Positions 8,553 through 13,017 of a stretch of 21,668 nucleotides of DNA are shown piece after piece. Below the pieces are notes generated by a model that was not told the DNA's origin, did not search any database, and worked only from the letters and a program-made list of their open reading frames with translations. Position 1 is the stretch's first letter. Each line of letters starts with the position of its first letter. The DNA is taken from positions 1 to 21,668 of IMG/VR virus record IMGVR_UViG_3300045454_000144. One strand, 5' to 3'. Source of the stretch: a virus. Made by a program: the position numbers and the translations under genes.

Positions 8553-9824
8553 ATGCCCAAGGTGCGCGCCTATGGCGCGGACGCCACGCTGAAGGCTTGC
8601 CGCGAGGCGGCTTACGGTGTGGCGCCGCTCTCCGGCTACCGGAGTCTCGATTTCAAGTCGACCGATCTCTCCTCGGCGCAGCCGCTCGGCGACGACCCGC
8701 TGCTCGGGCGCGGTCGCAACGCCCAGGACCCCTATCGCGGGCTCATCACCGACGAGGGCCAGATCGAGATCCCGTTCGATCTCCGCGGCACCGGCTTCTG
8801 GCTCACCGGCCTGTTCGGCGATCCGGCGACGACGGCGGTCAAGGCGAGCGGGTCGATCGCCTTCGCGGCCAACCCGTCGCCCGGCGACACCATCACGCTG
8901 AACGGCACGGAGTGGACCTTCGTCTCGGGCCCGGTCTCGGGCAACGAGACGGAGATCCAGGGGACGGTGACGCAGACCGTCGATCAGCTGGTCGCCGACC
9001 TCAACGGCTCGGGCGATGCGGAGGTGTCGAAGTGCACCTACTCGCGGCCGACCGGCACCCAGACGCTGGCGATCGAGTTTGATGTCGCGGGGCCGACGGG
9101 CAACGCCTTCACGCTCGCCGCATCGGCCGCGACCACATCGGGCCCGACTCTGACCGGCGGCGGCTACGACCATGTCTGGGAGAGCGGCGCCGACGACATC
9201 CCGAGCTACACGATCGAGATCGGCCACCCGAAGCTGGTGACGCCCGTGTTCTTCCACCATCTCGGCACGGTGATGGAGAGCCTCAACTTCGAGATGGGCC
9301 AGGAAGGGCCCGCCAACGCCCGCCTCCAGCTCGTGGCGCAGGGCGAAGAGAAATTCGCCGCCACGATCGACGCGAGCCCGGACGCCTACTCGCTGCGCCG
9401 GTTCAGCCAGGGACGCGGCTTCATCCGGCGCGGCGGGTCGGCGCTCGCCGGCGTCACGGGCGGCAGCCTTACCTTCTCGAACAATCTGGAGCGGGTGCGG
9501 GTGATCCGCGAGGACGGCAAGATCGAGGCGGCCGATCCCACCTTCGCCTCCGCCGAGGGCTCGATGTCGGTGCGCTTCGACGGCGCCACGCTGGTGGCCG
9601 AGGCCACCGACGGCGATCCGGTCGCCCTCGAATACGGGTTCACCTTCCCGGAAGGCTATGCGCTCCGCTTCGAGCTGCCGCGGGTCTTCCTGCCCAAGCC
9701 CAAATACGCCGTCTCCGGCCCCGGCGGGGTGGAGGCGAGCTTCGACTGGCGCGCCGCCTTCGACGACAGCGAAGGCACGATGCTGCGCGCCCATCTCCTG
9801 AACGACGTCACCAGCTACACGTGA
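8553..9824 (+). CDS. Major tail tube protein (lambda V position) with inserted beta domain
   Basis: This subunit stacks as hexamers into the tail tube. AAGGAG (8541-8546) sits 6 bases before ATG 8553. It is 423 residues, well over lambda gpV (246). The core is residues 1-97 ('MPKVRAYGADATLKACREAA', 'GLITDEGQIEIPFDLRGTGF') plus 205-423 ('YTIEIGHPKLVTPVFFHHLG', 'SLNFEMGQEGPANARLQLVA', 'GGSLTFSNNLERVRVIREDG'). Between them about 98-204 form a separate module: 'IAFAANPSPGDTITLNGTEW', 'GTVTQTVDQLVADLNGSG' and 'GPTLTGG'. This is a small beta domain seen in many phage structural proteins. The following gene pair is the G/G-T chaperone, which fits a tube protein here. Confidence 0.88.
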   Translation: MPKVRAYGADATLKACREAAYGVAPLSGYRSLDFKSTDLSSAQPLGDDPLLGRGRNAQDPYRGLITDEGQIEIPFDLRGTGFWLTGLFGDPATTAVKASGSIAFAANPSPGDTITLNGTEWTFVSGPVSGNETEIQGTVTQTVDQLVADLNGSGDAEVSKCTYSRPTGTQTLAIEFDVAGPTGNAFTLAASAATTSGPTLTGGGYDHVWESGADDIPSYTIEIGHPKLVTPVFFHHLGTVMESLNFEMGQEGPANARLQLVAQGEEKFAATIDASPDAYSLRRFSQGRGFIRRGGSALAGVTGGSLTFSNNLERVRVIREDGKIEAADPTFASAEGSMSVRFDGATLVAEATDGDPVALEYGFTFPEGYALRFELPRVFLPKPKYAVSGPGGVEASFDWRAAFDDSEGTMLRAHLLNDVTSYT

Positions 9825-9835
9825 GGACACAACCC

Positions 9836-10273
9836 ATGATCCGCCTCGATCTCTCCCGCGAGCCGCGCTGGCTCGATCTCGGCCACGGCGTGCGCCTGCG
9901 CGTGGGGCCACTGACCACCGCACTCATGGCGGCCGCGCGCAGCGATCCAACCGTAACGAGTCTGCCGGAGGGGGCGTCGAACGAGACCATCGCCGTTGCC
10001 ATGGCCAAGGCGCTGGCGCGGCTCGTGGTCGAGGACTGGGAGGGCGTCGGCGACGCCGAGGGCAACCCCGTGCCGGTCACGCCGGAGGGGATCGATGCGC
10101 TGCTCGACATCCTGCCGCTCTTCGAGGCCTTCCAGCTGCGCTACGTCTCGAAGGGCCTGCTCCTGGAAGCGGAAAAAAACGCCTCCGCGCCCTCGCCGAG
10201 TGGCACTTCAGCGGGGGCGACCAGTACTGCCGATCCTGCCGCGGCACCTGCAGCGAGTGCCCCGCCGTCCTGA
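9836..10273 (+). CDS. Tail assembly chaperone, lambda G-like (zero-frame product)
   Basis: This 145-residue product coats the tape measure before tube assembly in the lambda model. I chose ATG 9836, with GAGGA at 9823-9827 8 bases upstream, over GTG 9821. It begins 'MIRLDLSREPRWLDLGHGVR' and has helices 'NETIAVAMAKALARLVVEDW' and 'IDALLDILPLFEAFQLRYVS'. After residue 115 the zero-frame text turns into low-complexity Ser/Ala/Pro with poor third-position G/C, while the -1 frame takes on strong coding character from the same point. So the last 30 residues look like a read-out of a region selected for another frame. The slippery A AAA AAC lies at 10174-10180. Confidence 0.85.
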   Translation: MIRLDLSREPRWLDLGHGVRLRVGPLTTALMAAARSDPTVTSLPEGASNETIAVAMAKALARLVVEDWEGVGDAEGNPVPVTPEGIDALLDILPLFEAFQLRYVSKGLLLEAEKNASAPSPSGTSAGATSTADPAAAPAASAPPS

Positions 10274-10515
10274 ACCGGCCCGTCACCATTGAGGGCTGGC
10301 AGGTCTGGGATCTCGCCCTGCGACTCACGGGCCAGCTCCGCATCATCCCCGGCGCGGTGTTGGGCCTCGACATGACCGCCGCACTCGCAATGGCCGAGGC
10401 TTTGGGGATCAACCCATTGGTCGGTGCGGAGCTTCTGCCGGAGATCGAGGGAATGATGGTGCGCGGCCTCAACGCACAGATCAGGGCTGAACAGCAAGAG
10501 GCGGGGAGCGCGTGA
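9836..10515 (+). CDS. G-T fusion tail assembly chaperone made by -1 frameshift, join(9836..10180,10180..10515)
   Basis: Slipping back one base at A AAA AAC joins residues 1-115 of the G-like protein to 111 further residues, giving about 226. The T-like part starts 'RLRALAEWHFSGGDQYCRSC' and has a CxxC-x3-CxxC cluster, then 'VTIEGWQVWDLALRLTGQLR', 'AALAMAEALGINPLVGAELL' and 'MVRGLNAQIRAEQQEAG', ending at TGA 10513-10515. The -1 frame has no ATG, GTG or TTG between the slippery site and a GTG at 10357, yet its codons end almost always in G or C. The region can therefore hardly be reached other than by frameshift. In lambda, G-T carries the T domain that recruits tube protein to the tape measure. 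The frameshift itself is inferred. Confidence 0.82.
10174..10219 (+). promoter_or_regulatory. -1 ribosomal frameshift signal (slippery heptamer plus hairpin)
   Basis: A AAA AAC at 10174-10180 is in the right phase (zero-frame codons GAA AAA AAC). After a 7-base spacer, CGCCCTCG (10188-10195) can pair with CGGGGGCG (10212-10219) over 8 bp with one T-G wobble and a 16-base loop. Spacing of 5-9 bases between slip site and stem is usual for such signals. In GC-rich DNA stems arise easily, so the hairpin is weaker evidence than the heptamer. Confidence 0.78.
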
Positions 10516-10533: not shown

Positions 10534-13017
10534 ATGGCTGAGAAGCGCGTCTCCGTGCGCCTGGCCGTCGTCGGCGGCCGTGAGGTGCGCGCCGAGCTGC
10601 AAGGCGTTGGCGATGCAGGCGAGAGCAGCATGCGGCGCCTGTCCCGCGAGATGGATGCCGCAAACAGCCGCGTCGCCGCCTTCTATCGCCGGCTGCAGAT
10701 CGCCGCTGCCGCGGCCGCGGCCGCGTTCGCCGCCACCGCTGCGGCGATGATCCGCTCGGGCCTCCAGGTCATCGATGCCCAGGCCAAGCTCGCCGCCTCG
10801 CTCGGCACCACGGTCGAGAGCATCCAGGTGCTGGAGCGCGCCGGCGATCTCGCCGGCGTCTCCATGGGCGAGATCGAGCAGGCGACGATCCAGCTGACTC
10901 GGCGCCTCAGCCAGGCGGCGGCGGGAACCGGGCCGGCGGTCGAGGCGCTGCAGCGCCTGCGGCTCACCGCCGAGGAGCTGCAGCGGCTTCCCCTCGATCA
11001 GCGCATCGCCGCGATCCAGGACGCTCTGGCGCGTTACGTGCCTGAAGCCGAGCGTGCGGCGGTCGCCTCCAAGCTCTTCGGCGACCGGGCCGCGCTCACC
11101 TTCTCGCGCATCGACACGGCGACGCTCCGGACGGCGACGCAGGATGTGCGGGACTTCGGGGTTGTGGTCTCCCAGCAGGACTCGGCCCAGATCGAGCGTA
11201 CCAACGACGCACTGTCGCGGCTCGGGCTGATCTGGCGCGGGATCTCCAACCAGCTTGCCGTGGCGGCGGCGCCGGCCCTCGAAGCCGTCGCCGATGCGCT
11301 CGCGGCGATGGCGCGCACGACCGGACCGCTCGGCCGGGCGATCCAGCTCCTGTTCGAGAACATCGGCCGGCTTGCCTCGATCGCCGCGGCCTTCGTCGGG
11401 CTGATGGCCGGGCGCTTCGTCGCCAGCATGGTGGTGGCGGCCGTCTCGGTCCGTGGTCTCGCCACCGCGCTGGTCTTCCTGCGCGGCGCGATCATCCGCA
11501 CCGGGATCGGTGCGCTAGTCGTCGCGGCGGGCGAGCTGATCTACCAGTTCGGGCGGCTGGTGCAGGCGACCGGCGGGTTTGGCGCCGCGCTCAACCTCCT
11601 CGGCGATGTCGCGCGCGAGGTCTGGGATCGCATCGGTCTGCTCGCCGAGGTTCTCAAGGGTCGGGTCGCCGCTGCCTGGCTCGGGATCCAGGCGGGCGTG
11701 GCGGATGCCTTGCAGGGCGCGCTCGAAGCCGTCATCGGCTTCGGCAACCGGGCCGTCAACACCTTCCAGGGCGCCTTCGACGCCATGGTGGCGATCTGGA
11801 GCCGCCTGCCGGCAGCGATTGGCGACTTTGCCATCCGCGCGGCCAATGCGCTGATCGCCGCCGTCGAGTGGATGCTGAACGGCGCCACGCGCGGCATCAA
11901 CGGCCTGGTGCAAGGGATCAGTACCGCGCTTTCAGCCATCGGCATCGAGACTGAGATCAGACTCGTGCCGGACATCAATCTCGGCCGCATCGAGAACCAG
12001 TTCGCAGGCGCCGCCGAGCGCGCGGGGGAAGCGGCACGCGATGCCTTCGCGGCCGCCTTCGAAACGGACGCCTTCCGCGTTCCCGATCTCGGTCTATCTG
12101 AGTTCGCCGAGGATGCCCGCCGCGCTGCCGACAGTGCTCGCGCCACAGCGGATGCGATGAGTGAGCTGGCCGGGGCGCCGCTCGCCTCCGTCGCAGCCCT
12201 TCGCGAAGCGATGACGGGCGCCACGGCCGAGATCGACAACGCCGCGACCGCCACCGAGCGCCTCGACACCGCCTTCGACGCGATCAGCGGGGCTGACGAG
12301 GACGCCGGCGGCGCTACACGCGGCGCGGGGTCTGCCGGCCGGGCCGCCGCGGCCAGCCGGGAGGCGGGCAAGGAGATCAAGGATGCAGCGGAGCAGGCGG
12401 CGACCGGCTGGGCTGCTGTCCGCGACGAGCTCGCGCGCTACGCCAGCGAGGCGATGGATTGGGGCAAGGGCCTCGGCAATGCGCTGGTCGGCGCCTTCCG
12501 CAGCGCCGAGGACGCGATCGCCAAGTTCGTCACCACCGGCAAGCTCGACTTCAAGGCGCTCGCCGACAGCATCCTCGCCGACATCACGCGGATCGCCGTG
12601 CGCTCGGCGATCCTCGGCCCGCTCGCCAACGCGCTTGCCGGCGGAGGCGGTCTCCTCGGCGGCCTGTTCGGCGGCAGTGGCGGCCTCCTATCGGGGATCT
12701 TCCATACTGGCGGGATGGTCGGGGCTCCCGCACCCCAGCGCCTCGTCCCGGCGCTCGCCTTTGCCGGCGCGCCGCGCCTGCATGGTGGCGGCATGGCGGG
12801 GCTCCGTCCGGACGAGGTGCCCGCCATCCTGCAGCGCGGCGAGATGGTCCTCTCTCGCGCCCAGGTCGCCGCCATGGGCTCGGCCCGCGACACCCGTCCG
12901 CCGGTCAGCGTGGTGATGAACATCTCGACGCCGGACGCAAACAGCTTCCGCTATGCCCAGGGCCAGATCGCGGCCGACGCCGCCCGCGCCATCGAGCGGG
13001 CGCGACGCAATCTCTGA
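10534..13017 (+). CDS. Tail tape measure protein, lambda H-like
   Basis: This protein sets tail length and is ejected with DNA. It is 827 residues, close to lambda gpH (853), so a tail of lambda-like length is expected. The N-terminal part is helical with an Ala-rich segment (about 56-72). Hydrophobic stretches lie near 280-335. Long Ala/Glu/Arg-rich coiled-coil-like regions span about 485-630. The lambda-type C-terminal motif is clear at 643-690 ('GKGLGNALVGAFRSAEDAIA', 'KFVTTGKLDFKALADSILAD'), followed by a Gly-rich stretch 703-725 and 'FHTGGMVG', 'LHGGGMAGLRPDEVPAILQR', 'GEMVLSR', the usual end of this family. The ATG follows AGGGAA about 7 bases upstream. The gene directly follows the G-T chaperone. 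Confidence 0.95.
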   Translation: MAEKRVSVRLAVVGGREVRAELQGVGDAGESSMRRLSREMDAANSRVAAFYRRLQIAAAAAAAAFAATAAAMIRSGLQVIDAQAKLAASLGTTVESIQVLERAGDLAGVSMGEIEQATIQLTRRLSQAAAGTGPAVEALQRLRLTAEELQRLPLDQRIAAIQDALARYVPEAERAAVASKLFGDRAALTFSRIDTATLRTATQDVRDFGVVVSQQDSAQIERTNDALSRLGLIWRGISNQLAVAAAPALEAVADALAAMARTTGPLGRAIQLLFENIGRLASIAAAFVGLMAGRFVASMVVAAVSVRGLATALVFLRGAIIRTGIGALVVAAGELIYQFGRLVQATGGFGAALNLLGDVAREVWDRIGLLAEVLKGRVAAAWLGIQAGVADALQGALEAVIGFGNRAVNTFQGAFDAMVAIWSRLPAAIGDFAIRAANALIAAVEWMLNGATRGINGLVQGISTALSAIGIETEIRLVPDINLGRIENQFAGAAERAGEAARDAFAAAFETDAFRVPDLGLSEFAEDARRAADSARATADAMSELAGAPLASVAALREAMTGATAEIDNAATATERLDTAFDAISGADEDAGGATRGAGSAGRAAAASREAGKEIKDAAEQAATGWAAVRDELARYASEAMDWGKGLGNALVGAFRSAEDAIAKFVTTGKLDFKALADSILADITRIAVRSAILGPLANALAGGGGLLGGLFGGSGGLLSGIFHTGGMVGAPAPQRLVPALAFAGAPRLHGGGMAGLRPDEVPAILQRGEMVLSRAQVAAMGSARDTRPPVSVVMNISTPDANSFRYAQGQIAADAARAIERARRNL

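Follow-up and report, generated by a model that had tools for sequence, protein, structure and literature searches.

A G/GT-type tail assembly chaperone gene very probably expressed by programmed -1 ribosomal frameshifting in alphaproteobacterial phages

The window analysed here is a 21,668-nucleotide stretch of a virus record (IMG/VR IMGVR_UViG_3300045454_000144). Between its tail tube and tape measure genes, both recognised by Pfam profiles, lies a zero-frame gene (G) followed in the -1 frame by a second coding region (T), and the two together would encode a fusion (GT) (Table 1). The downstream tape measure protein is of the lambda type (PF09718). In a profile search the G product matched PHROG 313 (Tail assembly chaperone) with an E-value of 1.6e-25. 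An AlphaFold2 model of G, prepared with annotated phage records left out of the input rows, reached a pLDDT of 85.6. In BFVD it matches predicted phage tail/tape-measure chaperones (probability near 1, TM-scores around 0.5-0.6). By gene order, PHROG match and predicted fold, the zero-frame gene is a putative tail assembly chaperone. T matches PF24752 (DUF7697) over residues 56-105 with 80.4 bits, the gathering cut-off being 27. Searches of the PDB by sequence and by fold found no meaningful relative of G or T, and in Pfam neither the window's G and T nor 54 G homologues match the lambda G or T sequence families.

Table 1. Coordinates of the chaperone locus and its neighbours in the window.
Feature	Position	Strand	Evidence or remark
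Tail tube protein, upstream	8553..9824	+	PF18906 Phage_tube_2, E 1.5e-48
Zero-frame gene, putative G-like tail assembly chaperone, 145 aa	9836..10273	+	phrog_313; AlphaFold2 model compared with BFVD
Predicted GT fusion	9836 -> 10515	+	115 + 111 = 226 aa
Slippery heptamer A AAA AAC	10174..10180	+	In phase; 225 AAAAAAC and 9 GGGAAAC in phase among 244 loci
-1 frame T domain, 111 aa, predicted via frameshift	10180..10515	+	Open frame, first start 10357; conserved over whole length in relatives
7-nt spacer	10181..10187	+	Sequence
Putative stimulatory hairpin, 8-9 bp stem 10188-10196 / 10211-10219	10188..10219	+	96.8% of cells paired (43 sequences); z against synonymous shuffles
CxxC-x3-CxxC motif (T residues 17, 20, 24, 27), possible zinc-binding knuckle	10228..10260	+	Encoded only after the shift
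DUF7697 part of T	10345..10494	+	PF24752 E 9.3e-23 (T residues 56-105); phrog_11212 (T residues 53-106)
Tape measure protein, downstream	10534..13017	+	PF09718 E 1.7e-23; phrog_8462 E 3.9e-164

At the heptamer the zero frame reads GAA (10172), AAA (10175) and AAC (10178), residues 113-115, which is the X XXY YYZ phase for -1 tandem slippage. AAAAAAC was found twice on the two strands of the window, against 0.04 occurrences expected by chance. The -1 frame is free of stops from 9802 (a TGA at 9799 precedes) to the TGA at 10513-10515, and its earliest ATG, GTG or TTG is the GTG at 10357, 59 codons past the slip site. Up to the slip site, third-position G+C favours the zero frame (0.90, against 0.47 in the -1 frame). 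The next 31 codons show the reverse, with 0.61 in the zero frame and 0.97 in the -1 frame, so the coding signal moves from one frame to the other at the heptamer. An earlier sequence-only reading had pointed to the correctly phased heptamer, to a -1 frame open to the same stop with no usual start over its first 59 codons, and to a zero frame poor in third-position G/C where the -1 frame is rich; the codons, the frame scan and the composition bear out all three.

That reading had also proposed an alignment of homologues and had named, as evidence against a frameshift, homologues without both the heptamer and an open -1 frame. G- and T-query scans of viral and bacterial contigs, together with phage records, yielded 244 loci with both halves, the window included. 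In 238 of the 244, which come from separate assemblies and include isolate phages, T lies in the -1 frame relative to G. The in-phase heptamer is AAAAAAC in 225/244 loci and GGGAAAC in 9/244. The same pattern is seen in clusters at 90% nucleotide identity (98 and 3 of 106) and at 80% (18 and 2 of 22). Loci retrieved with T only come from a search pattern that never touches the heptamer and hence does not select for it; of these, 145/158 carry AAAAAAC and 6/158 GGGAAAC, i.e. one of the two in 151/158. Once aligned, the relatives share the heptamer, the hairpin and the open -1 frame.

Two separate groups carry GGGAAAC, that of RcKvothe and one of Gemmobacter/Rhodobacter prophages, and one slippery site was therefore probably exchanged for another at least twice. 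Elsewhere in G, lysine is written AAG 262 times and AAA 99 times (73% AAG), so codon preference does not account for AAA at the slip site. The faecal phage MT835566 has a very distant T homologue (33% identity); it is preceded by GCA AAA AAC, which is A AAA AAC in phase, and the -1 frame, read by eye, then continues as RLRRLAEWHWGGGD.

These counts bear on two explanations that place the frame break in the A-run itself. According to the first, a mistake in sequencing or assembly has broken what is really a single uninterrupted ORF. The window is an IMG/VR-type virus record, homopolymers are error-prone, and two loci, L244 (with A8) and L205 (next to Ns), do read as fused. However, the same -1 relation recurs in 238/244 loci from separate assemblies and isolate phages, and the GGGAAAC lineages lack a long homopolymer. 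Such an error is extremely improbable and, as a general account of the break, already refuted by the comparative sequence data. According to the second, RNA polymerase slips on the A-run and the resulting mixed mRNAs give G and GT without ribosomal frameshifting. The run is indeed A7, with a few variants of A6, A7G or A8, but in two lineages it is replaced by GGGAAAC, and the hairpin downstream is under selection, as ribosomal frameshifting would predict. Polymerase slippage is therefore a very unlikely source of the two products.

Single loci depart from the common arrangement. In L143 the place of the heptamer is taken by GAA GAA AAC (A GAA AAC), possibly a degenerate slip site, and the -1 frame and hairpin are intact. 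L030 and L088 (one contig), L169 and L232 are one base shorter in or after the A-run, which puts T in a +1/-2 relation to G; these are either sequencing errors or natural variants. L030 reads A AAA AAG G, on which a -2 slip would re-pair fully. In L244, a Roseisalinus antarcticus contig, a run of A8 brings G and T into a single frame of 228 aa. This may be a one-base error; if it is real, the short G would need slippage in the opposite direction.

The 8-bp hairpin noted earlier, 7 bases past the heptamer, was confirmed in its proposed register. The stem 10188-10195 / 10212-10219 has 8 pairs, one of them U-G, and in a fold starting at 10186 it grows to 9 bp with 3 further inner pairs. Among 43 diverged sequences it is paired in 96.8% of cells, compared with 48-74% when slid. 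An overlapping register, 10181-10188 / 10211-10218, is the MFE structure if folding begins at 10181, but it is conserved less (88.7% of cells paired). A plain 100-nt fold is not more stable than shuffles (z +0.8); it takes a local window or codon-aware shuffles for the hairpin to become apparent. When T was shuffled synonymously with its amino acids preserved, the hairpin window gave a mean z of -2.74 over 52 relatives, whereas five control windows further on gave -0.36 to +0.29.

The covariation score of the stem is not clearly above column shuffles, and most changes that preserve pairing are one-sided. Column shuffles fail to separate the stem because its columns are nearly invariant, and synonymous codon choice was therefore tested instead. 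Leu5 of T, within the stem, is CTC or CTT in 101/101 sequences and never CTG, the codon of 57% of leucines elsewhere. Gly12, also in the stem, is GGG in 90/100, against 15% elsewhere, and codons 14 to 18 show little synonymous bias. In the RcKvothe group, where the stem is CGCCCTTG/CAAGGGCG, Gly12 is replaced by Lys, yet every pair is kept. The synonymous bias, the shuffle z and the RcKvothe pairing suggest selection on the stem as RNA. Its conservation is not easily put down to the zero-frame tail alone, whose residues vary. No upstream Shine-Dalgarno-like stimulator was evident or conserved on inspection of the alignment by eye.

Conservation of the -1 frame at the protein level begins at the slip site. 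T residues 1-55 are conserved in relatives, and W8, G13, Y16, C17, C20, C27 and P28 are invariant; C24 is retained in at least 90% of the 53 sequences compared. The CxxC-x3-CxxC pattern suggests a zinc knuckle. All four cysteines precede any -1 frame start codon in the window, and this part of T would therefore be translated by frameshift only. If T were instead a separate gene with an internal start (GTG 10357, ATG 10372 or further on), the heptamer would be incidental. Some relatives are annotated in this way, and no other portion of T is represented in the Pfam and PHROG models, but the well-conserved 55 residues ahead of the first start, with their cysteines, and the synonymous constraint at the heptamer and stem leave very little probability for it. 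A short T could still be made in addition to GT.

Both PF24752 and phrog_11212 begin at T residue 53-56, near the internal starts, and the conserved N-terminal half of T is absent from them. They look like the outcome of truncated ORF calls, and probably stop short because of the habit, seen in the Synechococcus and Nostoc relatives, of calling two ORFs of which the second is truncated. A tentative proposal, rated slightly below an even chance, is that the T of this alphaproteobacterial phage family has a frameshift-only zinc-binding knuckle, missing from DUF7697 and phrog_11212 because these were built on truncated ORFs.

The locus is thus almost certainly a tail assembly chaperone gene of the G/GT type whose expression involves programmed -1 ribosomal frameshifting, as the sequence-only reading had held; the conserved heptamer, hairpin and -1 frame, the gene order and the G family match all support this. 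Translation of 9836-10273 by most ribosomes would yield G (145 aa). In a minority, the hairpin 7 nt further on would cause a pause while AAA and AAC occupy the ribosome; these ribosomes would move back one base onto AAA AAA and, reading the -1 frame as far as 10515, complete the 226-aa GT fusion. If lambda is a guide, the role of G may be to coat the tape measure protein and that of T to recruit the tail tube subunit. A AAA AAC slips less strongly than A AAA AAG in E. coli (PMC5009743), and the efficiency of the shift in the host is therefore uncertain. Nearly all relatives use AAC at this site.

These results firmly assign a large phage and prophage family of alphaproteobacteria to the G/GT kind, and the comparative evidence that its slip site and hairpin are selected is unusually clear. 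The function of the Pfam family DUF7697 is unknown; the data suggest that it represents the half of a tail assembly chaperone that lies beyond the frameshift, which, if so, would help to correct annotations. In the literature library searched, there were no papers on DUF7697 or on the slip site in this phage family.

Among known phages, Rhodobacter capsulatus phages RcKvothe, RcFrancesLouise and RcKemmy have a G homologue with 43-47% identity, a T homologue with about 50%, the same gene order and a -1 shift at the same place, but with G GGA AAC where the window has A AAA AAC. Synechococcus phage Sc-Yong805-1 and Nostoc phage Nsp-JY21 have a homologous T (49%) and a weakly similar G (29%), again in -1 relation; their site differs, being A AAA AAA. 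The expectation that automatic annotation loses the second half holds for these two, in which a pair of ORFs is annotated and the second begins about 40 codons past the slip site, but not for the three Rhodobacter phages, whose GenBank records already give the tail assembly chaperone as a two-piece joined CDS. The G/GT kind is well known from lambda (PMC5009743), and the window shares its features: an in-phase heptamer conserved near the end of the first gene, a second frame that is open, conserved and without its own start, and a downstream stimulatory structure, which is frequent but not universal in the kind. The earlier label "lambda-like" is apt for mechanism and position, but not for sequence. 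Unlike lambda, the window has another heptamer, proteins outside the lambda G/T families and a CxxC pair in T. As in lambda, the pair lies between the tail tube and tape measure genes, and a -1 shift near the end of G would give a longer fusion (PMC5009743). Long-tailed phages are known to use frameshifted tail chaperones, and the window leaves the known mechanism unchanged and adds a further member.
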